Assembly: GCF_016107575.1 (NCBI RefSeq) | Contig: NZ_JABAST010000008.1 | Location: forward strand, 1-64,000 | Length of the DNA: 64,000 nucleotides | Direction of reading: 5' to 3' | Source of the DNA: Psychrobacter faecalis | Lineage (GTDB): Bacteria > Pseudomonadota > Gammaproteobacteria > Pseudomonadales > Moraxellaceae | Shown here: in pieces, positions 3,186-20,220 of the stretch | Numbering within the stretch: the stretch's first letter is position 1 | Layout: every line of letters begins with the position of its first letter | Translations under genes and position numbers: made by a program | The notes under the pieces: model-generated | Told to the model about the DNA's origin: nothing | Databases searched by the model: none | Seen by the model: only the letters and a program-made list of their open reading frames with translations

Positions 3186-3258
3186 GTTAACGTCCTTATT
3201 ATCCAATGAAATGTTACAGTTATTATTTAGTTTGCTCTTATTATTGACGCATCTTCCT

Positions 3259-6213: not shown

Positions 6214-6260
6214 GGACGCTCTCGTATATATGGTTAAAAAAGAAAACAGCTATCAAAAAC

Positions 6261-8282
6261 TTAGTATCTGACAATAATATTGATAGTGATCTTCTTTTTG
6301 TTTTGATAGCTTTTGATGGCTTCATTTAACTCCATCTGTATAGCGGTATCGAAGTTGTAGCCATTGACTATGATTCTATCTGGCGCAAAACTTTTATCTT
6401 CATCTAACTTGTCTAACAAGCACTTCAAATTTTGAGTGCCAAAGTCAGATGCGATTAGATATAGGTTCTTATTAACCAGCTCGGCGTTATAGCCCTGTAA
6501 GCCTATACTTATAATGTCTGCAGTTAGCTCATTGTTATCGTAAAGCATCCATGTCGCTAGCAGCGCTTGGTACTGCTCATCGCTTAATACCATATCGTCA
6601 AATAAGCTTTCATTGGCAACTTCAAAATCATCATCTATCTTAGGACGAAAGTCATTTATGGTCTCAAAAACTTTAAAACCTAGATCGCCCTGATAATCTG
6701 GATTTTCTTTAGTAATTTTTTCAGCTACTTTCGTAATACGAGCTTTAGTAATATCGAAAATAGTTTTGTAACCCGCTTTATGAGGGGCCTTGGTGTTATC
6801 AGTAGGCTCTGGCAGCTGCATACAAATAAATTTCCGGTTACAGTTATCACTTATATTCAGATCCATAACAGCATGGGCAGTAGTACCTGAGCCTGCAAAA
6901 AAGTCTAAGACAATAGCATCCTGAGAGTTCTGCACCGATGCAATTAAGGTTTTGATAAGTGACGTTGATTTTGGTCTTGAAAAATAGCTCTTACCCTTAA
7001 ATAGTTTCTCTAACTCAACACCACCATCACTTTTAGTCGATAAAATCGATCTAAGAAGGAACTGTTTTACTTCTTCTAAATATGTGATTGAACTAGGCTG
7101 AGTGTTTTCGTCGGCTGCAAACCAGATTCGACCGCACATAAAACTACCATCGTGAAGCTCTTTTATATCTGTGTATTCATTGTCTATCCTTTTTGCTGCT
7201 TTATTAAAAGTATCTAACTTCCATCGCCAGCCACGATCAGGCATTTTTACTGGATTTCCTGTCTTAGGGTGAGGTATTACGTAGTCAGGCCCAAATGTAT
7301 CTTGATTTGGCCAGCTCATATTTATTTTTCCCCATAACTGATAATGCTCATCCATGGAGTTATAAAGCGTTATACCTCTATCATAATCATTTTTCTTATA
7401 AAATCTTTTTATTTCTTTTTCTGATTCTGAAATGGGTTTTTTGTCTTTCTTCAGTTTTTTCAATAACTCTTGTATATCGTCAAGCCCCTCTTTAGGCATT
7501 AAAAACTCATGTTTTAGACTTGAATTTTTTGCATAAAGCAGGATGTACTCATGAATGTTTCCAATTCCCTTATCATTTTTAGGGATTCGTTTATTCCAGC
7601 AAATACATTCAATAAAATTAACCTCACCAAAAATCTCATCACACAAAATTTTTAATTGAGAGAGCTCATTCTCGTCAATGGAGATAAAGATCACGCCATC
7701 GTCGCGCATGAGTTCACGAGCAATATACAGCCTTGGATACATAAAGGTTAACCAAGCGCTATGGCCATTCGAGCCTTTAGCATTAAAACTAAGCGTTCGT
7801 TCCGCTTCAGCTTTATCGATACCTGCTAGTCGGCTCAAATCATCTACTGTGAACTTGAAGTCATCTTTATAGACAAACCCATCTGACCCCGTATTGTAAG
7901 GAGGATCGATATATATCATCTTAATTTTTTCACGGTAGCCATTGACCAAATGCTTCAGCACTTCAAGGTTATCGCCTTTAATCAGTATATTACCGCTATC
8001 ACTGTTTTCAACGCTCTCATTATGTGTTGTATCAGGTTTTAGTAGCTTTTGAGGAGGTAAATTGGTTAACAGCCTAGCATAGGCTTTACCAAGCCAGTTT
8101 AAGCTATATGATTCCTTGACCATATCTACTTCGTTGGCTTTTACAACTTCCATCATCTTTTCAGGCTGAAAATGGCCATCCTTATCGAAACATTGAGGAA
8201 AATGTTTCTTTAAGATAGCAATTTGTTTGCTATTTGCCGTTTCAGTTTCATCAAAGAGAGTTTCGGTAGGCAGGTTGGTCAT
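6261..8282 (-). CDS. Type III restriction-modification DNA methyltransferase, Mod subunit
   Basis: This is an adenine-N6 methyltransferase that also supplies sequence recognition to Res. In the 673-residue protein the catalytic motif DPPY lies at 126-129 and the SAM-binding motif DFFAGSGTT near residue 460. This order (catalytic first, SAM second) is that of beta-class methyltransferases such as type III Mod. The region between them, roughly 230-400, is the likely target-recognition domain. The ATG at 8282 has a TAGGAAG ribosome site. It is the first gene of the operon mod-res-ATPase, transcribed away from the small gene at 8485. No simple repeat tract suggesting phase variation was seen in the coding sequence. 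Confidence 0.95.
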   Translation of the reverse strand: MTNLPTETLFDETETANSKQIAILKKHFPQCFDKDGHFQPEKMMEVVKANEVDMVKESYSLNWLGKAYARLLTNLPPQKLLKPDTTHNESVENSDSGNILIKGDNLEVLKHLVNGYREKIKMIYIDPPYNTGSDGFVYKDDFKFTVDDLSRLAGIDKAEAERTLSFNAKGSNGHSAWLTFMYPRLYIARELMRDDGVIFISIDENELSQLKILCDEIFGEVNFIECICWNKRIPKNDKGIGNIHEYILLYAKNSSLKHEFLMPKEGLDDIQELLKKLKKDKKPISESEKEIKRFYKKNDYDRGITLYNSMDEHYQLWGKINMSWPNQDTFGPDYVIPHPKTGNPVKMPDRGWRWKLDTFNKAAKRIDNEYTDIKELHDGSFMCGRIWFAADENTQPSSITYLEEVKQFLLRSILSTKSDGGVELEKLFKGKSYFSRPKSTSLIKTLIASVQNSQDAIVLDFFAGSGTTAHAVMDLNISDNCNRKFICMQLPEPTDNTKAPHKAGYKTIFDITKARITKVAEKITKENPDYQGDLGFKVFETINDFRPKIDDDFEVANESLFDDMVLSDEQYQALLATWMLYDNNELTADIISIGLQGYNAELVNKNLYLIASDFGTQNLKCLLDKLDEDKSFAPDRIIVNGYNFDTAIQMELNEAIKSYQNKKKITINIIVRY

Positions 8283-8484
8283 GATACTTCCTAGGGTGTA
8301 AGGTAAAAGGAGCGCTTATGTAACTGCTTTGGCATTATGACAAAGCCAATCCATCCAAACAATGATAAAGATATTTTAAGCGACATATACTGACGCATGT
8401 GCGTGGCTGATATGCACTGCAAACAGATTAACCTGATATTATAACTTTATAAAAATCGATAGTCATGAAATAGGAGTAGATAAG
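8283..8484. promoter_or_regulatory. Divergent promoter region between the type III operon and the TIR-like operon
   Basis: This 202-bp AT-rich spacer separates mod (leftward) from the small gene and TIR-like gene (rightward). It contains a palindrome at 8393-8404 (ACGCA-TG-TGCGT) and an AT-rich stretch with TATTATAAC near 8440 that could hold a rightward -10 box. No regulator gene sits next to it. Promoter positions are not firm. Confidence 0.4.
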
Positions 8485-8733
8485 ATGATTGAGATAAAAG
8501 GGCTGGATCAACTGGACAAGACATTAAGTGAGTTGGGCAAAGTAACTAGTGAGCTTGAAGGTGAACTAGGAGGCATACAGTTCGATGCGGAAAGTGCTGA
8601 AAGCATTGAGTTAGCTATCGTTGAAATGGAAAACATGGTTGATAAAAAGTTCGAAAATTACGCTTCAAATCCTGTGGCTATCGACATGGCTGACGGTATC
8701 AAGGCAGAATATAGGCAGAATATAGGCAGATGA
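8485..8733 (+). pseudogene. Small partner gene of the TIR-like protein, C-terminus frameshifted by an 11-bp duplication
   Basis: The visible 82-residue protein begins MIEIKGLDQLDKTLSEL and has a predicted helical middle. Small genes of this style are, from memory, often found directly before TIR-like nucleotide-binding genes, but I do not know a function. The frame ends early inside a tandem 11-bp duplication (8703-8724). Removing one copy restores a frame that continues MIVDKASEARIQADSEENKNGR and stops at 8796-8798, overlapping the start of the next gene at 8788. The ancestral protein was therefore about 100 residues and translationally coupled to the TIR-like gene. The truncated form may still work, since only the tail is lost. 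Confidence 0.65.
8703..8730 (+). repeat. Tandem 11-bp duplication causing a frameshift
   Basis: The unit GGCAGAATATA occurs at 8703-8713 and again at 8714-8724, followed by a partial GGCAGA at 8725-8730. Eleven is not a multiple of three, so the extra unit shifts the frame of the small gene and creates the TGA at 8731-8733. Confidence 0.85.
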
Positions 8734-8787
8734 TTGTAGATAAAGCAAGTGAAGCAAGAATACAGGCTGATAGTGAGGAGAATAAAA

Positions 8788-9717
8788 ATGGCCGTTGATC
8801 TATTCAAAAAAATTGATAATACCGTGTTAGATCTCCAAGCCTCACAAAGCCAAACCTATGAAGGGTTGCTTGAAAAGCTAGCTCAGTTGTTACGCCATGA
8901 AGACTTACAGCCTTTTAATAAAATACTTACTAAAAATATTAATTTAGAACAATTTCTAGAGGCGAGCTATGCCACTCAGCAAGGAATGTTTGGCACTAGC
9001 AGACTACAGTGGACTGGTAACGATGAACAAGACCTGGGACTAAAGTATGCATTAGTTCAAAAACTAGGTGATGATACAAGTTATGCGTCAAATTTTGCAT
9101 ACGAATTTTTTAGTAGCCGCGACAATAAAATAATCTCCTCTATTCACAACTTAGTTAGAGGGCTAATAATTCCCTTTGTGCGCGACTACAAAGAATATGT
9201 TGCTTCAAATAGCAAAATAGAGCCTGAGCTTAAGACACATGATGCTAACGCTGTAGCTCAATTTAATAGAAAAGTATTTGTCGTTCATGGGCATGACGAT
9301 CATGCAAAAGAAATGATGGCGCGTTTTCTAGAAAAAAATGATTTTGAAGCTATTATTCTTCATGAACAGGCAAGTGGTAATAAAACGATTATTGAAAAAA
9401 TTGAGCATTATGCGGATGTGGGGTTTGCAATTATATTACTGACTCCAGATGATATGGGTAAATCGAAAGATGCAGATAATTATCAACCTCGAGCACGTCA
9501 AAATGTGATTCTAGAGTTAGGTTACTTTATGGGCAAACTCGGTCGGAACAGGGTATGTGCATTTAGATCAGGTGATTTAGAAATTCCGACAGATTTTAGC
9601 GGTGTTATTTGGAACCCATTAGATAATGCTGGTGCTTGGAAACAGTTACTATCAAAAGAGCTTAGTGAAGCAGGCTATGATTTAGACAGTAATAAGCTTT
9701 TAAAGTCCTTAGGGTAG
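8788..9717 (+). CDS. TIR-like nucleotide-binding protein (CAP12/Pycsar-effector type TIR domain)
   Basis: The 309-residue protein has an uncharacterised N-terminal half (1-155) and a C-terminal TIR-like domain (about 162-290). The domain begins VFVVHGHDDHAKE at 163-175, then HEQASGNKTIIEK at 192-204, LLTPDDMG at 217-224 and NVILELGYFMG at 239-249. This pattern is that of the predicted nucleotide-binding TIR-like family (Pfam CAP12/Pycsar effector TIR), whose members are proposed NAD-degrading defence effectors. I chose the ATG at 8788 because GAGGAG lies 8 nt upstream and because the restored small gene overlaps it; the frame is open further upstream without a good ribosome site. No cyclase gene for a cyclic nucleotide signal is adjacent, so the trigger is unknown. 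Confidence 0.85.
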   Translation: MAVDLFKKIDNTVLDLQASQSQTYEGLLEKLAQLLRHEDLQPFNKILTKNINLEQFLEASYATQQGMFGTSRLQWTGNDEQDLGLKYALVQKLGDDTSYASNFAYEFFSSRDNKIISSIHNLVRGLIIPFVRDYKEYVASNSKIEPELKTHDANAVAQFNRKVFVVHGHDDHAKEMMARFLEKNDFEAIILHEQASGNKTIIEKIEHYADVGFAIILLTPDDMGKSKDADNYQPRARQNVILELGYFMGKLGRNRVCAFRSGDLEIPTDFSGVIWNPLDNAGAWKQLLSKELSEAGYDLDSNKLLKSLG

Positions 9718-9854
9718 ATAAGTTTATCTCGAAAACAGGCTATCTAGATCCACTTTCTGGAACGGGTAGCTTATACAGTTTGCTATAGCTAAGTACTGAA
9801 GGCTATCTAAGTCTTTGCAGTTATCATTGGTACTCATCAACGGAGAGTCACGTA

Positions 9855-10475
9855 GTGAAAAGTACAGGTCACCATATAGCATACGAAGCATCTCTATCAA
9901 TTTCTGATGGTTATACAGGATTACAGAGTAGAGATGAGTATAACGCTGCTATTATGCATATCTTTGATTTGATAAAAGCTTCATATACCTTATTAATGAC
10001 TGACAGTGCAGCACCTTCGCTATTTTTATCTATTACTGTATTCGAAGAAATTGCTAAAGTTCACGCTGGGCACATGCGCTCAAGAGGAGAGCTAGAAACG
10101 AAGCAAAGAGTAAAGCGATCGAAAGACCCTCTCTTTAATCATGGCAAAAAGCATAGGATCTCTATCGACCCTTTATTTTTATCTTCTGAACGCTTATATA
10201 ACAGTATTGGTAAAGAGAGAGTTGAAGAGATAATAATGAACTATGAAACAGGGAAATACTCAGCTCTTAGAGAAAAGTCGTTGTATTTTAGTCGAACTAA
10301 TGAAGGTTTGCATATACCCTCTAAATTCATAAGCATTAATTTATCAGCTGAACACCTACTGATAGCTATTGAGCTATTTGGTGAATTATTTTGGGGTATG
10401 ACAGCTGTTGCTTCTATAGCAAGTGATGAAACTGATGCGATTTTTTTAAGAGTGACAAAAATACTCATTCAATGA
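9855..10475 (+). CDS. AbiV-like HEPN protein, probable abortive-infection protein
   Basis: This is a 206-residue helical protein starting at a GTG with GGAGAG upstream. The segment SLFLSITVFEEIAKVHAGHM resembles the EE-I-K helix of AbiV-family HEPN proteins, and REKSLYFS near residue 140 matches their second conserved stretch. AbiV of Lactococcus blocks phage by interfering with translation. HEPN families often act as ribonucleases, but I do not see a clear R-x4-6-H motif here, so catalysis is uncertain. It is convergent with tnsE (43 bp between the stop codons) and lies in the transposon cargo beside other defence genes, which supports a defence role. Confidence 0.65.
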   Translation: MKSTGHHIAYEASLSISDGYTGLQSRDEYNAAIMHIFDLIKASYTLLMTDSAAPSLFLSITVFEEIAKVHAGHMRSRGELETKQRVKRSKDPLFNHGKKHRISIDPLFLSSERLYNSIGKERVEEIIMNYETGKYSALREKSLYFSRTNEGLHIPSKFISINLSAEHLLIAIELFGELFWGMTAVASIASDETDAIFLRVTKILIQ

Positions 10476-10518: not shown

Positions 10519-12087
10519 TCATTCAGCCAAACCTAGAACTGTATCCAATCGCTTTTGCCATCGTATAAAATCGTCACTACTTTCAGTAAGTTCGAGCATA
10601 CTTTTAGGATGGTTCAAGGTGTACACATCGTCAAATTTTTTTAAATAACTGGCCTTAGGCCAACGCAGTGATCTCTTAACAACTAAGCTCAGAAACTCAT
10701 CCATATGATCGTCCCAGTAATCTAAATCATTGATTTTTATTATTAAGGTCGATATTGGCTTAGAGTTGTCAGTAGTATCTATCTCTAAAATGACGAACTG
10801 AGAAGTGTCAGTTTTGACTCTTACTTCAAGTAAAGACCGTCTATTGCCGTCCATCGTTCTATGTAGCCTAGAGCGCCCAACAGCAGGTAAAAAATGTAGT
10901 TTTTCAGTACAGTCAGTCTTAGGTCGTTCTGATAGCCTCTTGATTAGTAGCTTAAAGGCTTCAAATCGTTGCATATACAGTTCTAAAACATCGCTGTCAT
11001 CCTCAAGCCCAGAGAAGTCTGCTTGGCATGCTGTGCCGTCAATTGTGGCCTCATCTGTACCAAGATCTAGTTCTACTAACTCTTCATAATCTTCAGTCTC
11101 TGCTCCTTGTGCGCCTGGAACTCTTTTTTTGACAACTTTTCGAGTTTCTATTGGAGTTGCAAAGCTAAAGGAAGTTGTTGGCACCTCTATCGTTTTCGGT
11201 TTAGTGTCAATATCTGCTTCTTGCTGATCATCAATAGTATCACTACTTACTGAACCATTTGGCTTAGCTACGTTACTTGTACCGCCGCCTCTCGTACCAG
11301 CTTTGAATTTCTCACTATAAAATGGCACTTTTTTGGGCAAAGAGGAGAGAATATTACTGATGCCTATAATTTCATGAACATAGTAATTGCCAGTATCCTT
11401 GTGCATCCAACCTCTAGTGTCTAGTGAGAGGTTATCAAGCCGTGGCGGACTAAATTTAAAGCACCATGTCTTCTTGTCTTCAGTTTCCTGAGCTTCTTCA
11501 ATAAAATTTTTGGCAATACTTTCATAGGAAGAACGCGCATTTTCATCTATTAGTATCCAAGCCAGTAAGCGTCTCTGTCCTTCGTGATCAAAAGTTTTTA
11601 AAGGTAGAGAGCTTATAGGCAAAACATTTACCAATACTGAATCATTTGGCATGTCTTGAATCCAAAACTCTCTATTGAGTAATCCGTGATCAATACAGTT
11701 TCGAGCAAGATAGGCATTATGAAAAAATAACACTCGTGCAAACTCAATCTGAGGTATATGGACTGTTACTGTTGACTCATCTGGTCTGATATAGTCAAAC
11801 ACAAAGGTATTACCGCCACTTTCTGAATCAATGCCTACTTGCCAATTAGCAGTAGAGACATTACTCAAAACAAATGGGTAGCCACCTTTACGAGACTGCC
11901 CATCTGAAGGGTTTATGACTCTTCTTTTCGCGAGAGCTGGTAGATTTGATAGTCTAGTATGTAATATTTGATTTTTCCTAGTGCTTGTTACGTATAGCTC
12001 AAGATTCCATGTCTTTAAGTGTTTAAACTTGAAAATATTAGCAACGTACATTATTTTCGAGTCTTCAGGGAAACCTTTAGCGATCAT
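10519..12087 (-). CDS. tnsE: Tn7-type transposition protein TnsE
   Basis: TnsE directs Tn7 into conjugating plasmids by binding the sliding clamp and 3' recessed ends on the lagging strand. The 522 residues are close to Tn7 TnsE (538). Recognisable segments include an N-terminal HIPQIEFARVLFFHNAYLARNC-type stretch near residue 130, the WCFKFSPPRLD segment near 205, and the conserved C-terminal core with PAVGRSRLHR (about 408-417) and the NHPKSMLEL tail. An acidic, low-complexity linker (about 260-375) separates the halves, as in Tn7. The start overlaps the tnsD stop by 4 bp. Its presence with tnsD predicts both site-specific and plasmid-directed pathways. Confidence 0.92.
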   Translation of the reverse strand: MIAKGFPEDSKIMYVANIFKFKHLKTWNLELYVTSTRKNQILHTRLSNLPALAKRRVINPSDGQSRKGGYPFVLSNVSTANWQVGIDSESGGNTFVFDYIRPDESTVTVHIPQIEFARVLFFHNAYLARNCIDHGLLNREFWIQDMPNDSVLVNVLPISSLPLKTFDHEGQRRLLAWILIDENARSSYESIAKNFIEEAQETEDKKTWCFKFSPPRLDNLSLDTRGWMHKDTGNYYVHEIIGISNILSSLPKKVPFYSEKFKAGTRGGGTSNVAKPNGSVSSDTIDDQQEADIDTKPKTIEVPTTSFSFATPIETRKVVKKRVPGAQGAETEDYEELVELDLGTDEATIDGTACQADFSGLEDDSDVLELYMQRFEAFKLLIKRLSERPKTDCTEKLHFLPAVGRSRLHRTMDGNRRSLLEVRVKTDTSQFVILEIDTTDNSKPISTLIIKINDLDYWDDHMDEFLSLVVKRSLRWPKASYLKKFDDVYTLNHPKSMLELTESSDDFIRWQKRLDTVLGLAE

Positions 12088-13631
12088 ATACTCACCTTGT
12101 TTATTCGCATATTTGTAATACTGTATGCATGCTCTAGAAACCTACTAGACTCAGGAGTAATTCGCTCATCACTCAATTTAGCCAGTCGTAATATCTCCCA
12201 GCGCTGTAAAGTTTGATTGTTCGATATACTATCAATTAATACCTGGCTTAACCGTCTTATTTGATAGTTACTAACGTCTTCACTATATCTATCCAAAAAT
12301 GCTGAGACTAGAGGCAGCTTATCTTGATTCTTTTCAATCATTGAGACTGAATCAGTTTGATTCATCCACCACTTTTTTGATTTACGAGGTAATGTTAAGT
12401 CGAAACATGTGTGATCGTTTATTTTGATCAAAGACCTCACAAACTCGTTATCTCGCTTTTGCCAATCTACAGTAAATCCTTTAGGTATGTGACGTTGATG
12501 GTAGTTTTTGTTTGTATTAATAAACCATGTCTTATCGTTACGATATAGCCATGCATAAAGAGCTTTATTAACTTTTCTAGCTTCTTTAATCGATTGGTGT
12601 TCTTTAATCAAGTCTAACCATAGGTTTCGATTTGACTTTATCAATTCACTGTCGGGCTTTATGGTATTTTTCGCTTTTGTAATTTTACCAGATAGGGTGG
12701 TTTTCTGGCTTTTCACCTGCATTATTATTTCTTCAAAAGTCCATTCTTGCTCCAATAATGAACTAATAGCGATAATATGTTCAAGATAACTGAACGATTT
12801 ACGATGTTTACGAAAAATACCGCGAAGCCAACCTGTTTCACTGTTAAGTCTATGAAGATTGTTCGTTTCCAATAACTCTAATGGCCATCTATTTTTTACC
12901 TTTTCTAGTATACGAAGGTGGTCGATATGTTTAGACCCTCTTATACAGTTACTAGATCGAGCTAAACCGTGGTAAAAAGCAGTCCACTGCTCAAAAGTCG
13001 GAGAAGATTGTTCAGCTAAGGATAAAAGCTCAGTTATTTTAGAAATGAGGAACCTATTATTTTCATTGACACTTCCTTGTGGATTTATATTACAGTTATG
13101 TGGAGTAGGGGCAATAAAATCATGACGGGAGTTAGGACGATATTCAACTGAAGAATCCGCTAATGATCCATGCTTGCTACAACAAGTTATGCCTGGAATT
13201 TGCCACATACGTGACCAATACCATTCACCATAATCTTTAAACTGCTCATTAAAACATTGTGGGCAGTAACGGATATATTTTACTGAGGGCAGTCTTGATG
13301 CATTATTCCCTATTGCTAAGTGAATAGCGCCTTGCGAATGATTAGCCATCCATCTCAAACATTCTTGTCGCCTAGACTCAGGGATAAAAGGAGCATACAA
13401 AGGAAAAAGCGTATGCTGGTATGCAATATAATTCAGATTAAAACGGTTATGAGGATAGTGATTCGCTATTTTAGATAAATGGCATGGCAAATCAACAGTT
13501 GCAACTACTCCTCTATCTTCAAAAACATCATCTAATAACTGCTTTGGACTAATCAATCCAGCTCTAATCTTATACCTAGCAACTGTGCTATAGATCAATT
13601 CTTGAGGGTATGGCATAGGAAGATTAATCAT
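12084..13631 (-). CDS. tnsD: Tn7-type target selector TnsD (TniQ family)
   Basis: TnsD binds the conserved 3' end of glmS and recruits TnsC, fixing the insertion point just downstream. The 515-residue length equals that of full TnsD proteins (Tn7: 508), much longer than the short TniQ of CRISPR-associated elements. The N-terminal PYPQELIYSTVARY motif and the zinc-binding CPQC (about 124-127) with a downstream CCSKH are typical. The start lies 1 bp after the tnsC stop codon, so translation is probably coupled. The element's actual location beyond glmS agrees with this gene being the targeting factor. Confidence 0.92.
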   Translation of the reverse strand: MINLPMPYPQELIYSTVARYKIRAGLISPKQLLDDVFEDRGVVATVDLPCHLSKIANHYPHNRFNLNYIAYQHTLFPLYAPFIPESRRQECLRWMANHSQGAIHLAIGNNASRLPSVKYIRYCPQCFNEQFKDYGEWYWSRMWQIPGITCCSKHGSLADSSVEYRPNSRHDFIAPTPHNCNINPQGSVNENNRFLISKITELLSLAEQSSPTFEQWTAFYHGLARSSNCIRGSKHIDHLRILEKVKNRWPLELLETNNLHRLNSETGWLRGIFRKHRKSFSYLEHIIAISSLLEQEWTFEEIIMQVKSQKTTLSGKITKAKNTIKPDSELIKSNRNLWLDLIKEHQSIKEARKVNKALYAWLYRNDKTWFINTNKNYHQRHIPKGFTVDWQKRDNEFVRSLIKINDHTCFDLTLPRKSKKWWMNQTDSVSMIEKNQDKLPLVSAFLDRYSEDVSNYQIRRLSQVLIDSISNNQTLQRWEILRLAKLSDERITPESSRFLEHAYSITNMRINKVSI

Positions 13632-13632
13632 A

Positions 13633-15354
13633 CTAACTCACCTTAGGTAGCCAGTCATTAATATCAAATATTAGCGATGTAAAATCTTTTAAGTGCTCAT
13701 AAAATGAATTATCTTTTTCCTTTTGAGTGAACTGATAACGTAAATCTTCAGAGTCAAGCGTATGCCAATCCTTTGGTTTGATATAATTCGATTTTTTGGT
13801 ACGATTAATCGTTTGAGAATCATCTTTTAAATTGCTGCTTCCAACTTTAACCTCTTTCGACCATTCTAAAATAATAGACATCAACTCGGGCATAGAGGCT
13901 TCAGGTAGCTCAGAAACTGCTTTTTTAACTGTAGGAACTAGTACAGGGGAGTCTTTCCCCATATCGACTAACATACGATGTAATCTAATGCTTAGTTCGC
14001 ACCCCTGATATTCTGATACCTCATCGAACTCAGACTTCTTTTGATGTAGCTTACTTTGGAGCTGCAGTAACTTTTTATCGATGTCGGGTATTACTAGATC
14101 TGAAAACTCGGCAATTTTATCTGCTCTACCAGATTGCAAGGCTTCTATCATAGGATGTATAGGTCTTAGATCTTCATCGTAAGTGGTCTGCAGTAGTTTA
14201 ACCGTAATACGTTCTATCCCTGAATCTATAGCTCTGAGCTGAGCTAGTACAAAAAGCTTAACTACGATATCTAAAATACCTTGTGACAGATCATACCAAC
14301 GACTTCTTACATCGTCAGATAAGACAACATCTGCTTTTCTCAACCATTGATACTTCCACAAATTATCCGTAAACCTGTTCCATTCAGATTTATATGTTTT
14401 GCCATCTGCTAAAACTATATTTGGTTCTTGTGCCATCTGCTCCCAAAAAACTGAGCCAAAACCTGCTCCACGTCGAGCTGATCTTAAGTCTCCTTCAAAT
14501 ATAAATCTAGCTTTTGGTGTTCCAACCATAACGACAGGAAGACCTACCGTATTTACTAGCGTCACAAAAAAATTCAACATTTTCTCAGCACCGCCAGACT
14601 TATTAACACTGAGATGTTGTATTTCGTCTATTACTAACAGTCCGATAGCATGGTGATTAGAAATCTGACGCATCAAATTCAATAAAGTTTCAATACTATG
14701 TCGTTTTAGCGCATACTTTTTTTCATAATTAGAGTCTAAAGCTTGGTCGATTGCTCTAAAAAAGTGAAGGCATAGGCTTTTAAGTGAGCCATCGTGTGGA
14801 CAATCTACTCTTAAGTAAACAATTTGAGTGAAGTTTAATTCTGAATGATAAATAACTTGAGGATAAGTTGATAGAATTTTATTAAGAGTGGTCGTTTTAC
14901 CACTACCTGAGCAGCCTATAAATGCCAAGCTACGAGCTGTAGAAGTCGCTGTAGGAAACCTAATCACATCGTCCTCACCAGACATTAAACGCTCATAGCC
15001 ATTTTGAAGATGAGTATTTAAAGAGCCGTCTTTAGGATTGCGTCCAACATACCCTTCACGAATCATTATTGATAACTTCTTCTCAAGATCAATATGACGG
15101 TTGATAGGCTGAAAAAACAGACCCATCATTTGAGATATCAAATGTGCTCTAATAGAAGAGGAAGCCTGACAGTAAGAATGATTGAGCTTTATACTACCTT
15201 TAAGTTTTTTGACCACTTGTTCTGGTTCTAGAATGTCAGGCAGTGCCTCAATAAAGGGGTTCCCTTTGTAAGAACCAAAGCTTTCTTTATAAACTGCATT
15301 AATTATTACTGTCTCCAACATTCTGTAATCAGTCATCTTCAGATAAAATATCAT
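13633..15354 (-). CDS. tnsC: Tn7-type AAA+ regulator TnsC
   Basis: TnsC is the ATP-dependent filament that connects the target selectors to the TnsAB transposase and confers target immunity. The 573-residue frame has Walker A GCSGSGKTT at 147-155 and Walker B LLVIDEIQHL at about 239-248, with the AAA+ segment SARRGAGFG further on. The frame overlaps tnsB by 26 bp. Several starts are possible: alignment by eye with Tn7 TnsC puts the natural start at residue 12 (ATG at 15321), while an ATG at 15336 overlaps the tnsB stop codon. The longest form is given here. Confidence 0.93.
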   Translation of the reverse strand: MIFYLKMTDYRMLETVIINAVYKESFGSYKGNPFIEALPDILEPEQVVKKLKGSIKLNHSYCQASSSIRAHLISQMMGLFFQPINRHIDLEKKLSIMIREGYVGRNPKDGSLNTHLQNGYERLMSGEDDVIRFPTATSTARSLAFIGCSGSGKTTTLNKILSTYPQVIYHSELNFTQIVYLRVDCPHDGSLKSLCLHFFRAIDQALDSNYEKKYALKRHSIETLLNLMRQISNHHAIGLLVIDEIQHLSVNKSGGAEKMLNFFVTLVNTVGLPVVMVGTPKARFIFEGDLRSARRGAGFGSVFWEQMAQEPNIVLADGKTYKSEWNRFTDNLWKYQWLRKADVVLSDDVRSRWYDLSQGILDIVVKLFVLAQLRAIDSGIERITVKLLQTTYDEDLRPIHPMIEALQSGRADKIAEFSDLVIPDIDKKLLQLQSKLHQKKSEFDEVSEYQGCELSIRLHRMLVDMGKDSPVLVPTVKKAVSELPEASMPELMSIILEWSKEVKVGSSNLKDDSQTINRTKKSNYIKPKDWHTLDSEDLRYQFTQKEKDNSFYEHLKDFTSLIFDINDWLPKVS

Positions 15355-17434
15355 GATAAACTGGGAACTTAAGCGCTAGCTCTTCATCATCCAGTTCACT
15401 TTGACTTCTCGTGCTTTTTTTGGTCGTAGGCAGTTGAATTAACTCACCTTTTTTAAACTTGCTTTTCTGCCTGTCCTGTCGCTCCTCATCTTTAGCTAAC
15501 CTTTTGTTATCATTGATATTAGCTAACTGAGCTGACTTGCTTTTAAATGCTGTTGGTTTAGCCTTCATAGCTTCTTTTATGATTTTTTCATTTTCTCGTT
15601 CAAGGGTTTCTAATGCGAAACTACTTTTAAGCTCTTGATTGGCAGCTGTTTTTTTCTGCTCTTCTTGTATTTGCCACACCTCCCAAAAACTACAGCCCTT
15701 AAACTCTCTTGATCTATCGGATAAATGGGCTTTCCAATAATTGAGGCTACCTTGTTCATAAAAGATAAAAATTGTATTTGCATCTAAAGGATCGTAAGCA
15801 ACTTTAATCGATTTAGGTCTATTGATTGTGTTTTTCCGATGAAGCCAGCCTTTTTCTCTTATTTCAGCACAAATATAGTAATTACCAAAGAGCTTGATAC
15901 CTAAATCTGAAATGCTGGCTTTTTTTTGAGGTAATAGCGCTATGTATAAAGCATCCGCTGAGACAGCACGAAGCCTACCTGTTCGATGTTGTAACCCCCA
16001 CTTCCATAATTCAATAGGAACTAGAGGTAAGTCAGATGGCATATCACTATCTCTATCATAGTGACTTAATTGATGAGCATTGTTATGCATCAAAATTGAA
16101 TTAATAAGAATTTTTTTTAAATCTGAAATTGTCAAAGCAGCATCTAATCGGTAGTCGTTGCCACCTTTTTTCTTCTCTTTAACCCCTGTGACTACTCCTG
16201 GCGCAAATGGTTTGAACTTTGCCTGCATGGTTTTAAAGTAACGCTCCACAATAGGCTTTAAGTCGCCACGATAAGGAGGGGTATTCTCTACTCGAACTGA
16301 AAAGCTTTTTTCCAAGGTCTCAATTTGATGACCTAGTAATTCTCCACGATCTGCGAGAATTGCATCTGGCAAGCCTATACATGGCCAATCGTCAGCTGTG
16401 ATATTAATACCATTATTTTTACAGTAACTTTGTTTATCCGCTACTGCCATCTCTAAGGCTTGAATACTCGTGGCATAGGAAGGGTTTTCAAATCCAATAT
16501 AAAAACCTGCTACCATGCGGCTAAACACATCTGTAACGAAGTAAATAACTGGACGACCTACAATACTCTGCCTATCTGAATCAGATACTAGATAAATATC
16601 TGCAATAGTAGCGTCGATCTCATAGCGTGAACCAGGGCCAAGAACTTGAGTGTTAACAGTCGAGCTTAACTGTCTCACATCTTTGTTATAACTGATTTTA
16701 TTATATCTGGCTTTGAGTTTTTGAACGGAAGTAAAGTTCTTGTCATAAAAGTATTTAAACTGCCAGATACTAGGAAAGTCCTCTTCTTTAACATCTGGAT
16801 TTAAAGAGCGATACATTGTTTTAAATTTTCGGTAAGCATAGACGACTGTATGCTTGCTATCGTTTAATAAGTACTTATTTATAGTGATTGAGAAGAGCCT
16901 TTCTACATCTTCATTAATAACGGCAGTAACCCCTTCCTTATAGAGCCTAGGCCTACCTAGCTCTTTATCTTTAGCAATACGCTTTTTTCCTTTCGCTCCA
17001 GAATTTTTATAGTTCGGAAGTAGAGCATTAGGTACTTGGCCTTTTTGCCAATACCTACGAAGTAACCGATATAGCGTTTGCTTTGTACTTCTTTTAGAGT
17101 CAACAATCTCATTAATGAAATTTGCACGTTCCTCTGGAAGGTAATATAAAGGGTGACTTACAATAGGCTTAATAAGCTCATAACTCTCATCTCGTTTTAA
17201 CTGAGCTTTACTGCCATCTTTTGGAGTTTGTAACAGTAAACTCTGATGAGGGTCGTCAGTGATATAACACACACCCTCTTCAATCAGATTCACTAGATCC
17301 TTCATAAGTACAAGTTCAGGCAATGCGGATGTACGATCAATCTCAATCCAAACAACTTGCTCTGGTAAAAGGCTTAGTATTCTATACGTTGAACCTTGAT
17401 TACTATAGACATCATTGATTCGCAACATATCCAA
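15329..17434 (-). CDS. tnsB: Tn7-type DDE transposase TnsB
   Basis: TnsB binds the end repeats, cuts the 3' ends and joins them to target DNA. The 701 residues are essentially Tn7 length (702). The DDE catalytic triad reads as D274 (YEIDATIAD), D362 (AILADRGELLG) and E397 (PIVERYFK), each one residue from the Tn7 positions 273, 361 and 396. N-terminal helix-turn-helix segments for end binding lie at about 100-200, and the basic C-terminal tail is where Tn7 TnsB contacts TnsC. It overlaps tnsA by 23 bp and tnsC by 26 bp. The triad is intact, so the transposase should be active. Confidence 0.95.
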   Translation of the reverse strand: MDMLRINDVYSNQGSTYRILSLLPEQVVWIEIDRTSALPELVLMKDLVNLIEEGVCYITDDPHQSLLLQTPKDGSKAQLKRDESYELIKPIVSHPLYYLPEERANFINEIVDSKRSTKQTLYRLLRRYWQKGQVPNALLPNYKNSGAKGKKRIAKDKELGRPRLYKEGVTAVINEDVERLFSITINKYLLNDSKHTVVYAYRKFKTMYRSLNPDVKEEDFPSIWQFKYFYDKNFTSVQKLKARYNKISYNKDVRQLSSTVNTQVLGPGSRYEIDATIADIYLVSDSDRQSIVGRPVIYFVTDVFSRMVAGFYIGFENPSYATSIQALEMAVADKQSYCKNNGINITADDWPCIGLPDAILADRGELLGHQIETLEKSFSVRVENTPPYRGDLKPIVERYFKTMQAKFKPFAPGVVTGVKEKKKGGNDYRLDAALTISDLKKILINSILMHNNAHQLSHYDRDSDMPSDLPLVPIELWKWGLQHRTGRLRAVSADALYIALLPQKKASISDLGIKLFGNYYICAEIREKGWLHRKNTINRPKSIKVAYDPLDANTIFIFYEQGSLNYWKAHLSDRSREFKGCSFWEVWQIQEEQKKTAANQELKSSFALETLERENEKIIKEAMKAKPTAFKSKSAQLANINDNKRLAKDEERQDRQKSKFKKGELIQLPTTKKSTRSQSELDDEELALKFPVYHDILSEDD

Positions 17435-18227
17435 GCTCCTCAGTCATTAAGTCCCAATAATGAGAGTTACTTATTTGAATGTCGCTACACTTTAGCTTTC
17501 TGAAGCCTATGCGAAGGTCGAATGTGAAGAACCTCAGCCCTAATAGCGTTCTCAACTCATTAAGCGAACTGCCTACCTCACTGAAATATGCAGTATCAAT
17601 ATCTTTGCACACAGCGATAATGCTTTTTTCAGGATATTTGGTAAATTCCTTAGCGTAAAAATTCAGACTGTCTTGAGTATCAACTGACCTATTTAGAGTA
17701 GTTTCTGGATATAGCCATTTAATGTTATTTTGAACGTCTATAGGTATGTCTTTTTCAGTGATTATCTGCCACGAAATGCCTTTAGAGTGCCAGTATCGAC
17801 GCTCTATCTCTAGTTTCTCTAGAGTTCTGGGCTTCATTAGATCTTTTGAATATTTTGCCTGCAAAACAAATTGGCTAAGCTCTTTATCAGAGCTCACAAC
17901 ATAAAAGTCTGATGTCATAACATGAGTATTGCCTCTAATAGCAGGATGCTTTACTTGCATATTCTCTGCAATCTGAAGGGTTTCATCAAATTTAAGAGGA
18001 AATTGCTCTCGAATATCTATTATTTCTTGACTCCATTCAAGAAATAGAAATGTTGCTAGCTCTAAATCAGACATTAAATGGTGAGTACGTCTTGTTTTGT
18101 GACCGAAAACCCTATGGGATCGACCTGACGACGATATATCAGATATTTTTATCCAAGGTTTGTACTCGGCAAACTCCCCCTGACCTCTACCTTCTTTAAG
18201 CCACTTTTCTTGTTTTTTTGAAAGCAT
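17412..18227 (-). CDS. tnsA: Tn7-type endonuclease TnsA
   Basis: TnsA cuts the 5' ends of the element, which makes transposition cut-and-paste rather than replicative. The 271-residue protein shows the KEGRGQG start motif, the SSGRSHR segment and the catalytic residues E56 (DLELA), D107 (MTSDFY) and K125 (LQAKYS). These correspond to Tn7 E63, D114 and K132 with a constant offset of seven. The ATG at 18227 comes 6 nt after the hairpin described separately; AGGGG in the 3' arm of that hairpin is the ribosome site. The protein is the first product of the tns operon. Confidence 0.95.
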   Translation of the reverse strand: MLSKKQEKWLKEGRGQGEFAEYKPWIKISDISSSGRSHRVFGHKTRRTHHLMSDLELATFLFLEWSQEIIDIREQFPLKFDETLQIAENMQVKHPAIRGNTHVMTSDFYVVSSDKELSQFVLQAKYSKDLMKPRTLEKLEIERRYWHSKGISWQIITEKDIPIDVQNNIKWLYPETTLNRSVDTQDSLNFYAKEFTKYPEKSIIAVCKDIDTAYFSEVGSSLNELRTLLGLRFFTFDLRIGFRKLKCSDIQISNSHYWDLMTEELGYVANQ

Positions 18228-18233
18228 AAAAAA

Positions 18234-18266
18234 CCCCTGCTAAAGTTATATAAACTTTAGCAGGGG
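18234..18266 (-). terminator. Hairpin with T-run directly before tnsA: terminator that also hides the ribosome site
   Basis: The arms 18234-18247 (CCCCTGCTAAAGTT) and 18253-18266 are perfect 14-bp reverse complements with a 5-nt loop. On the minus strand the hairpin is followed by six Ts and then the tnsA ATG, so it has the full form of an intrinsic terminator reading toward tnsA. The AGGGG ribosome site of tnsA is in the downstream arm. An RNA started upstream, for example from glmS, would contain both arms and either terminate or have its ribosome site paired. Confidence 0.8.
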
Positions 18267-18282
18267 GTAATAGCGGAGTCAA
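18254..18282 (-). promoter_or_regulatory. tnsABCDE promoter, -10 box inside the hairpin arm
   Basis: On the minus strand, TTGACT (18282-18277) is a near-consensus -35 box. It is followed by a 17-bp spacer and TAAAGT (18259-18254) as the -10 box, preceded by TGC to give an extended -10. The start point predicted about 7 nt downstream lies at the loop of the hairpin, so this transcript would lack the upstream arm. The -35 box directly abuts the third TnsB-type repeat, which suggests repression by TnsB. Confidence 0.65.
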
Positions 18283-18350
18283 CAGTATGATACTTTATTA
18301 CTCAGTATGTATCTTTATTACTTAGTATGATACTTTATTACTCGCGTACA
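18283..18350 (-). repeat. Transposon right end with three tandem 20-bp TnsB-type repeats
   Basis: Reading inward on the minus strand, the end TGTACGCG (18350-18343) is followed by three directly abutting units at 18342-18323, 18322-18303 and 18302-18283. Each has the form AGTAATAAAG followed by TATCATACTR or ATACATACTG. Tn7 has four overlapping 22-bp TnsB sites in its right end, so three contiguous sites here is a variation. The last unit touches the -35 box of the tns promoter. Confidence 0.85.
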
Positions 18351-18412
18351 AAGCTTTCAGAATCAATCACTTATCCTACTCGACCGTGACTGATTTTGCG
18401 AGATTACGTGGC
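18351..18412. other. attTn7 site: insertion point and predicted TnsD-binding segment in the 3' end of glmS
   Basis: The element boundary falls between 18350 and 18351, 25 bp from the last base of the glmS stop codon. In Tn7, TnsD recognises the last 30-odd bases of glmS coding sequence, which here would be about 18376-18412. The presumed 5-bp target duplication is 18351-18355. Confidence 0.75.
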
Positions 18413-20220
18413 TGATCGACATCCGTACCACGCATCACTGCTACATGATAAGACAGCAGTTGCACAGGTACGCTATAAACGATAGGGGCAAGCGTCTCGC
18501 AAACCTCGGGGACATAAACCACGTGCATTCTATCTTCTGCGACCATCTTGCTTTCTTCACTAGCAAATACAAACAGCTCACCGTGACGCGCATGTACTTC
18601 TTGCATGTTGGCTTTTAGCTTATCAAACATACTGTCTTTTGGCGCGAGCACCACGATTGGCATGTCTTTATCGACCAACGCCAATGGACCGTGCTTTAGC
18701 TCACCTGCCGCATAGCCTTCTGCGTGAATATAAGAGATTTCTTTTAGTTTCAGCGCGCCTTCTAAGGCGATTGGAAACTGTAAGCCACGACCTAAGAATA
18801 AGCAGCTTTTCTTATACTCAAAATGCTCACTCATGACTTTGATAGGCGCATCGAGTTGTAAGCTGGCATGTAGTTGCCCGCGTAGCTCTTGTAATTTGCC
18901 TAACAAGGTGGTTAATTTTTCACCTGTCATACGCGCTTGTACAACACCCACTTTTAACACCAGTAACATCAACGCGGCAAGCTGAGTGGTAAAGGCTTTG
19001 GTCGAGGCAACGCCAATCTCAGGGCCGGCAAGCGTTGGTAAAAAGATATCGGTTTCACGCACCAAAGATGAGGTCGGTACATTACATAAAGCCAAGCTGA
19101 CGAGGCCTGCTGGCGTGTGCTTTTGAATATCACGAAGTGCCGATAAGGTATCCGCCGTTTCGCCCGATTGCGAGATGCAAATGACCAAGGTGTCATCGAC
19201 GACCACTGGATTGCGGTAGCGGAACTCACTAGCAACCTCAACCGAACACGGCAAACGGGTTAGGCTTTCAAACCAATATTTCGCGACCAAACCTGAATGA
19301 TAGCTGGTCCCACAAGCGATGACTTGAACGTTCTTGATACCTTTTAACTGTGCTTCATGACGCTGCAAAAAGTCATCGCGCAGCTTAGATGGCGCATCAC
19401 TATCTAAAGCCATCTCAATCGTACGGGCAACTGCATCTGGCTGCTCATAGATTTCTTTAAGCATGTAATGCTTAAATTCACCTTTATCAGCATTATGCTG
19501 GGCGGCATCAATCTCATGTATCTGACGTTTTACTTTTACGCCATCGGCATAAACTTCAATACTATTACGGGTTAATTTGGCGATATCGCCTTCTTCTAGA
19601 TACATAAAGCGATTGGTCACGGGCAAAAGCGCCAATTGATCAGAGGCAATAAAGTTCTCACCGATACCTACACCGATGACCAAAGGCGAACCTAGACGCA
19701 CGGTAATCAGCTCGTCTGGGCAATCAATGTGCAAAATGCCAAGGGCAAACGCGCCATGTAATAAAGGAATAACGGCACGCACAGCTTCCAGTAAATCAGG
19801 CGTATTTTTGTAGATATCATTGATTAAATGGGCGACGACTTCGGTATCAGTTTGCGAGGTAAACTCGTAGCCTTTAGCAATCAGCTCTTCTTTTAGCTCA
19901 GCATAGTTCTCAACGATACCATTATGGACCACGGCAATTTTACCAGATACGTGCGGATGAGCGTTGCGCTGCGCAGGTTCGCCATGCGTGGCCCAGCGCG
20001 TATGTGCAATACCGATATGACCATCGAAAAATTCAGGATTGACGGCGACGGCATCGACCAGCGCTTGTACTTTGCCCACTTGGCGCTCACGATGCAGCTC
20101 GCCATCACGGATAACCGTCAGACCAGCAGAGTCATAACCACGGTATTCTAGGCGTTTAAGGCCTTCAAGTAAGATATTGGCAATATTCCGCTCAGCAACT
20201 GCTCCAACGATTCCGCACAT
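18376..20220 (-). CDS. glmS: Glutamine-fructose-6-phosphate aminotransferase GlmS
   Basis: It makes glucosamine-6-phosphate from fructose-6-phosphate and glutamine, the first step toward UDP-GlcNAc for cell wall and lipid A. The 614-residue protein starts MCGIVGA, giving the catalytic N-terminal cysteine. The glutaminase domain includes the HTRWATHG segment, followed by two SIS sugar-isomerase domains, with SQSGETADT near residue 355 and the C-terminus ending KSVTVE. A good ribosome site (AAGGAATAATT before ATG) is present. It lies 165 bp downstream of glmU on the same strand. Its 3' end is the target of the Tn7-like element, which leaves the coding sequence intact. Confidence 0.97.
   Translation of the reverse strand: MCGIVGAVAERNIANILLEGLKRLEYRGYDSAGLTVIRDGELHRERQVGKVQALVDAVAVNPEFFDGHIGIAHTRWATHGEPAQRNAHPHVSGKIAVVHNGIVENYAELKEELIAKGYEFTSQTDTEVVAHLINDIYKNTPDLLEAVRAVIPLLHGAFALGILHIDCPDELITVRLGSPLVIGVGIGENFIASDQLALLPVTNRFMYLEEGDIAKLTRNSIEVYADGVKVKRQIHEIDAAQHNADKGEFKHYMLKEIYEQPDAVARTIEMALDSDAPSKLRDDFLQRHEAQLKGIKNVQVIACGTSYHSGLVAKYWFESLTRLPCSVEVASEFRYRNPVVVDDTLVICISQSGETADTLSALRDIQKHTPAGLVSLALCNVPTSSLVRETDIFLPTLAGPEIGVASTKAFTTQLAALMLLVLKVGVVQARMTGEKLTTLLGKLQELRGQLHASLQLDAPIKVMSEHFEYKKSCLFLGRGLQFPIALEGALKLKEISYIHAEGYAAGELKHGPLALVDKDMPIVVLAPKDSMFDKLKANMQEVHARHGELFVFASEESKMVAEDRMHVVYVPEVCETLAPIVYSVPVQLLSYHVAVMRGTDVDQPRNLAKSVTVE

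Follow-up and report, generated by a model that had tools for sequence, protein, structure and literature searches.

The locus studied here raises the question of how a transposon that lies directly behind a transcribed essential gene can keep the expression of its transposition genes separate from that of its neighbour. The window, a stretch of 64,000 nt from Psychrobacter faecalis (contig NZ_JABAST010000008.1), harbors such an element next to glmS, with the following genes and right end:

18376..20220, minus strand: glmS, an open reading frame with the stop codon at 18378-18376, which matches GlmS from other genomes and points into the element.
18284..18350, no strand assigned: right end of the element, with the terminal TGT at 18350 and three 20-bp repeats resembling TnsB sites at 18284-18343.
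17412..18227, minus strand: tnsA, with its ATG from 18227 and the Pfam domains PF08722 and PF08721 above cut-off.
15329..17434, minus strand: tnsB, with a Mu-transposase C-terminal domain and its position after tnsA.
13633..15354, minus strand: tnsC, with the domains Tn7_TnsC_Int and TniB.
12084..13631, minus strand: tnsD, the attTn7 target selector, with TnsD and TniQ domains.
10519..12087, minus strand: tnsE, with the domain TnsE_C.

The order tnsA-tnsB-tnsC-tnsD together with tnsE on the minus strand, as assigned by Pfam, places the element among the TnsD-targeted members of the Tn7 family. Its right end carries three direct repeats where 0.09 such matches are expected by chance, and by analogy with Tn7 we take them to be putative TnsB-binding sites. 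The element end is 28 nt away from where the glmS stop codon begins, which fits the attTn7 position about 25 bp behind glmS. The start of tnsA agrees with other TnsA proteins, in which M1 is nearly invariant. The cargo (420-10475) is, by Pfam, a small defence cluster that includes a type III restriction-modification pair (6261-8282 and 3259-6213), a CAP12/Pycsar TIR effector (8749-9717, plus strand) and an AbiV-type HEPN protein (9855-10475, plus strand). The contig ends at window position 1 and the left end of the element lies beyond it.

Between the right-end repeats and tnsA, the leader comprises the following parts:

18282-18277, minus strand: -35 box TTGACT of the tnsA promoter, with a spacer of 17 bp to the -10 box.
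18266-18253, minus strand: arm 1, CCCCTGCTAAAGTT, which enters a read-through RNA first.
18262-18254, minus strand: extended -10 box TGC-TAAAGT, within arm 1.
18252-18248, minus strand: loop TATAT between arm 1 and arm 2.
18246..18248, minus strand: predicted tnsA transcription start (a prediction only), within the loop or where arm 2 begins, 6-8 nt past the -10 box.
18247-18234, minus strand: arm 2, AACTTTAGCAGGGG, which holds the ribosome site AGGGG at 18238-18234.
18233-18228, minus strand: T6 tract, terminator tail and spacer from the ribosome site to the start codon.

The original prediction had described a perfect 14-bp stem with a 5-nt loop, six Ts and the tnsA ATG, and every one of these elements was found as described; its placing of the -10 box in the first arm, of AGGGG in the second and of TTGACT at a distance of 17 bp was likewise exact. 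The 14 pairs of the stem, 7 of them G-C, are directly followed by T6, which is the sequence pattern of an intrinsic terminator, and the T tract lies 3' of the stem on the tnsA-sense strand only. The folding energy of the leader on the minus strand is -24.1 kcal/mol, and for 18215-18300, computed on the plus strand, a z-score of -4.68 was obtained, with none of 200 dinucleotide shuffles being equally stable. A scan of 801 bases for terminator-like sites yielded two, the tnsA hairpin among them, where 0.5 were expected. The promoter scan alone gave 2 matches versus 1.8 expected, which is not above chance, and a comparison across elements was therefore needed to decide. A known RNA family was considered and ruled out: Rfam gave just two matches, rli38 with 30.2 of 49 bits and NsiR1 with 20.6 of 39 bits, neither of which reached the gathering score.

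For the comparison, leaders were collected from the genus Psychrobacter (TnsA match in 23 of 105 genomes), from the window's family (65 of 322 genomes) and class (10 of 370 genomes), from another bacterial family, f124 (TnsA domain in 64 of 147; 60 places fetched), and from plasmids, where 8 of 509 records were opened, among them R721, which carries the Tn7 right end. This set holds 74 leaders, of which 57 are distinct, Tn7 itself included. The distinct leaders comprise 51 compact leaders adjacent to glmS, 4 that otherwise occur away from glmS on plasmids or a separate contig, and the leaders L120 and L123; the counts omit L061, which is cut by a contig end, and L121, which contains masked bases. 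Loci other than compact glmS-adjacent ones stand outside the 74 (L056, L068-L078, L086, L087, L089-L091, L133), as do the leaders away from glmS apart from L120. Broken or partial tnsA copies (L019, L021, L079, L080, L081) were retained, with only the leader being scored.

The boxes, the stem and the T tract can be read directly from these leaders, and so can their conservation. With -35 and -10 boxes scored by the E. coli consensus, a promoter pair was called in 53 of the 57 distinct leaders (100 shuffles: mean 17.5, maximum 26), the -10 box lay inside arm 1 in 50 (mean 7.7, maximum 14), and the strict form with TTG, 17 bp and the -10 box in arm 1 occurred in 41 (mean 0.5, maximum 2); the glmS-adjacent elements are mutually related and the leader counts are thus not independent. 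The exceptions are four leaders with no promoter call and three more with the -10 box outside arm 1. The predicted start is located past arm 1 in 50/57 leaders, and 48/57 show both this and a -10 box in arm 1. A Shine-Dalgarno-like site was recognised in 47/57 leaders, every time within arm 2. T runs of at least 4 within the 12 nt that precede the start codon are present in 42/57; some of the other 15, with shorter runs, could lock the ribosome site but would hardly terminate. The stem sequences differ widely and the loop length is variable: arm 1 reads CCCCTGCTAAAGTT in the window, GATCCTTTGCTATCTTGT, AATCGCCTGCTATTCTTA or AAAAAGCCCAGATATACT elsewhere and AGTCCAGTTATGCT in Tn7, with little in common beyond a -10-like word. 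The leader of Tn7 conforms with TTGTAA, 17 bp and TATGCT, and is found directly behind glmS in E. coli 1EC213; a 137-bp query from this Tn7 end matches 115 of 5,426 E. coli genomes, 109 of them with a coverage of at least 80%. It is this conservation that lifts the predicted layout of hairpin and promoter above chance, and, as judged from the leader sequences, the placement of promoter and ribosome site in opposed arms is a trait of the Tn7 family. The search for the same arm layout in related elements, which had been suggested as a check, was thus positive, also for Tn7.

The f124 set was sampled by protein domain and hence independently of the leader sequence; start codons were picked by a distance rule, except that of L099, which was re-chosen by eye after its leader had been inspected. 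In this set, 16 compact leaders adjacent to glmS show a median folding energy of -20.5 kcal/mol and a median z of -5.65, compared with -9.4 kcal/mol and -0.84 for 41 leaders of Tn7-like elements away from glmS (Mann-Whitney p 8e-8 for z, uncorrected for kinship). A z of -3 or lower was reached by 13/16 versus 2/41 leaders, and a z of -2 or lower by 16/16 versus 12/41. When L099 and the duplicate L124 were removed, the 14 remaining glmS-adjacent leaders had a median z of -5.87 (p 2e-7). The link of the hairpin to glmS is not absolute, as L120 carries the device although the 1.8 kb upstream contain no glmS, and 12 of the 41 leaders away from glmS have a z of -2 or lower. In six glmS-adjacent leaders (L098, L099, L110, L115, L124, L135), the region of the ribosome site is paired and a T tract is absent.

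In Acinetobacter, five elements (L068, L070, L075, L076, L077) have a right end of 600-1000 bp and a tnsA with no hairpin. These loci contain a terminator-like hairpin which ends 158-162 nt past the first base of the glmS stop codon. At another locus (L071), tandem right ends lie within 370 bp behind glmS: the first leader has a hairpin of the same type, a T tract and a short stretch of tnsA, and is followed by a second right end and another tnsA. The original prediction had regarded related elements with no opposed arms as evidence against it. Such elements exist, namely those with long right ends and most of those away from glmS, and we do not count them against it because the five long-right-end elements that could be scanned have a separate terminator for glmS and the others have no glmS in the fetched stretch.

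What the insertion does to glmS itself can be seen in Acinetobacter, where 30 of 60 glmS loci were opened and a TnsA match is present in 9 of these 30 genomes. Among the 21 loci from genomes with no TnsA match, 16 have an intrinsic terminator that starts 7-58 nt behind the glmS stop, and the other five show element-like end sequences as judged by eye. In L273, what appears to be the first arm of the native terminator is left before the element end, and in L050 the insertion leaves the hairpin but removes the T run. To judge from these sequences, the native terminator of glmS can be disrupted when an element inserts about 25 bp past the gene. Gay and colleagues reportedly found in 1986 that Tn7 inserts in the glmS terminator, and the glmS RNA is then said to terminate 127 bp inside Tn7. 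The Acinetobacter insertions within the native terminator agree with the title of that report, and the element of the window shares with Tn7, as reportedly described there, the insertion into the terminator region of glmS. In the Tn7 sequence, GGAC at the foot of arm 2 extends to base 127, and Ts occupy 128-131. The earlier statement that such insulation was not described for Tn7 may therefore be wrong in part, since glmS transcription reportedly ends inside the element. To our knowledge, the 1986 report covers neither the overlap with promoter and ribosome site nor conservation across the family or survival after loss of the element.

In 15 of the 105 Psychrobacter genomes tnsA adjoins glmS, and these were treated separately; G081 gave no glmS match. 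The glmS 3' flank was then surveyed in 93 of the 105 genomes, 4 of these 93 belonging to the 15. The search profiles cover the hairpin and T tract alone and derive from 16 tnsA leaders, including two interrupted genes (L019, L021) and one leader from another genus (L067), and a cut-off of 12 bits was applied. The hairpin is kept in 65 of 89 Psychrobacter genomes with no intact adjacent tnsA, although these genomes are related and the 65 remnants are not independent cases. The background stayed below the cut-off: the best of 1,780 shuffles scored 8.8 bits, the best real sequence further downstream 10.9, and nothing in another 283 kb exceeded 9.5 apart from the window's own hairpin. Four Psychrobacter genomes (G102, G103, G046, G055) have a different and closer terminator 28-37 nt behind the glmS stop, which may be native.

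Stem and promoter met different fates in these remnants. Both promoter boxes are present in 16/16 leaders with tnsA versus 12/65 remnants, and since the profiles contain the -10 columns and favour remnants that keep this box, the decay of the promoter is, if anything, underestimated by this count. Taken singly, TTG is found in 21/65 remnants, compared with 16/16 leaders with tnsA, and TAnnnT in 31/65. The stem energy is little changed, with a median of -23.3 for the 16 leaders and -20.9 for 50 distinct remnants. In an alignment of 27 distinct type-II remnants with 3 tnsA leaders, 92.0% of the pair cells are standard and 8 of 15 pairs have changed on both sides; when the partner is slid, pairing falls to 38-52%. 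Further pair types in this alignment, as a measure of covariation, were not above the shuffles (19 versus 19.3). Many type-II remnants carry CGCCATCT in place of TGCTATCTT, matched by changes in the opposite arm, so that the pairing is kept and the -10 box is gone. A start codon directly after the T run, seen in 53/65 remnants, was dropped as evidence because TTG arises from the T run itself. As the boxes decay while the stem stays paired, selection seems to act on the promoter through tnsA and on the stem through glmS. The hairpin appears to have been retained in many host species after the element was otherwise lost. In Acinetobacter, a tnsA leader remnant whose stem is paired lies about 60 nt past the stop of glmS (L270 in genome G619), and given this locus hairpin retention may not be confined to Psychrobacter.

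Because insertions cut the native terminator and hosts keep the hairpin after tnsA is gone, the hairpin is probably more than a means of self-protection and probably also serves as a terminator of glmS. Here the original interpretation has to be modified: the layout and the predicted behaviour of the two RNAs extend across the family, while self-protection is probably not the sole role. We consider it likely that the hairpin replaces the glmS terminator and at the same time incorporates promoter and ribosome site of tnsA, an arrangement that would insulate tnsA from read-through.

Several other explanations were weighed. It might be that the hairpin is a terminator only and that its overlap with the promoter and the ribosome site simply reflects lack of space in a short right end and does not serve to block translation. 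The remnants, which retain the stem in the absence of tnsA, and the five elements with long right ends, whose terminator is separate from tnsA, are both compatible with this; however, six glmS-adjacent leaders (L083, L084, L098, L099, L110, L115) lack the T tract and still have the ribosome site in the stem, and wherever a ribosome site was recognised it lies in arm 2 (47/47). We regard this explanation as unlikely.

The history might also have run the other way, with a native glmS terminator of Psychrobacter captured by the element and the copies lacking tnsA being ancestral. For 39 of the 65 remnants no TnsB-like site was recognised before the hairpin, as this origin would predict, but 26 of the 65 do have such a site between glmS and the hairpin, compared with none of 65 shuffled sequences. 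In the leaders with tnsA, moreover, the hairpin is part of the element, with the TnsB-like repeats on one side and tnsA on the other, and the device is also present in Tn7 and many elements of other families, all of which makes a reverse origin very improbable.

Hardly more credible is a regulated attenuator, with the tnsA promoter further upstream in the TnsB-site repeats or being that of glmS itself. The tnsA start is indeed a prediction, and words resembling TTG and a -10 box are common in AT-rich DNA, as the mean of 17.5 pairs among 57 shuffled leaders illustrates; yet the boxes that overlap the hairpin are complete in all leaders with tnsA and jointly present in few remnants, i.e. the internal promoter is lost together with tnsA, and its position and 17-bp spacing recur with unrelated stems. 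That the palindrome acts at the DNA level, either as the operator of a dimeric protein or as a site used in transposition, is most doubtful of all: a palindrome in one element has been examined for effects on insertion orientation in the available text of PMC10201428, but in our leaders loop lengths vary, stems are unrelated in sequence, changes are paired on both arms, G-U pairs are frequent, with one-sided ones in 19 of 15 x 30 pair cells (columns 10, 12, 1 and others), and the T tract is on one side only.

The fused terminator, promoter and ribosome site that we favour would act through two kinds of RNA. From the layout we infer the start site of tnsA, termination at the T tract and control of translation. 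RNA derived from glmS would hold both arms and mostly terminate at the T tract, and any RNA reading past this tract would have the tnsA ribosome site sequestered by pairing. A transcript from the element's own promoter would start in or after the loop, lack the stem, escape termination and be translated; the -35 box may in addition be repressed by TnsB on the adjacent repeats. In models of both RNAs, opening the ribosome site costs a median of 15.5 kcal/mol in read-through RNA versus 3.1 kcal/mol in own-promoter RNA, with the lower value for the latter in 50/50 cases, a comparison that favours the shorter own RNA by construction and is illustrative only. One short sequence would in this way provide both the 3' end of glmS and a transposase synthesis independent of host transcription. 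After the death of an element, selection on glmS would retain the stem and the T tract, and the promoter boxes would decay.

Protection of mobile elements by RNA structure has precedents. Davis, Simons and Kleckner reportedly described in 1985 that Tn10/IS10 is protected from external promoters by RNA folding. The behaviour predicted for the tnsA leader is alike: RNA from outside would fold and leave the transposase untranslated, and RNA from the own promoter would have no first arm. The tnsA leader differs in three respects: its fold has the pattern of an intrinsic terminator as well, arm 1 is built from the -10 box, and one and the same essential gene is the neighbour in every case. IS200 is said to have been studied by Beuzon in 1999. 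Terminators upstream of insertion sequence genes have been proposed to block outside transcription as "mobile attenuators", with Tn10 and IS200 cited as cases, and hosts have been proposed to reuse such terminators, according to the accessible part of Naville and Gautheret 2010 (PMC2965389); a hairpin at the ribosome site of IS200 is mentioned in an excerpt of PMC12594629. As far as these portions of the articles go, the insertion sequences share with the tnsA leader a terminator and a ribosome-site hairpin before transposase genes as well as the proposed reuse of remnants by the host. The tnsA leader belongs to another class of element and unites promoter, terminator and ribosome site in one 40-base unit. 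The reuse differs as well, as the tnsA hairpin would be the 3' terminator of an essential gene and the terminators of insertion sequences, in the same portions, become 5' attenuators. For ISPpu9, the available section of PMC8450116 describes a structure at the ribosome site and proposes its opening by an antisense RNA.

Within the Tn7 relatives, a CRISPR-associated element has a palindrome 97-107 bp inside its right end that is suspected to drive transcription of tnsABC, as stated in the part of PMC10201428 available to us. It resembles the tnsA hairpin in lying about 100 bp inside the right end and in its suspected role as tnsABC promoter, a likeness by description and not by sequence; the study concerns orientation, and that part mentions no role as terminator or at the ribosome site. 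Our search of the literature on Tn7 with promoter, terminator, hairpin or read-through found no tnsA leader hairpin, but older papers are thinly covered by it and such absence is weak evidence. The accessible portions of PMC11406308, PMC8190619, PMC2918618, PMC12823268, PMC1475584, PMC4265352 and PMC5006887 likewise contain nothing on such a hairpin. The principle of insulation is already known from insertion sequences; the fused layout of promoter, terminator and ribosome site and its afterlife in the host appear to be new.

Geneticists use Tn7 as a standard element, and mini-Tn7 vectors make use of its right end. For builders of these vectors, our results mean that one stretch of 40 bases in this right end probably contains both a terminator and a promoter start. 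If the proposed mechanism holds, it would explain how an element can reside behind an essential transcribed gene, neither harming glmS nor being activated by it, and a transposon's 5' insulator would have been turned into the 3' terminator of an essential host gene, a reuse with a built-in control in that the promoter boxes decay and the stem is kept. On balance, we are inclined to believe that the fused hairpin of the Tn7 family repairs the glmS unit broken by insertion and blocks accidental expression of the element, and that in Psychrobacter it has replaced the terminator of the host and outlived the elements, so that in most species sampled an essential gene would end in RNA donated by a transposon.
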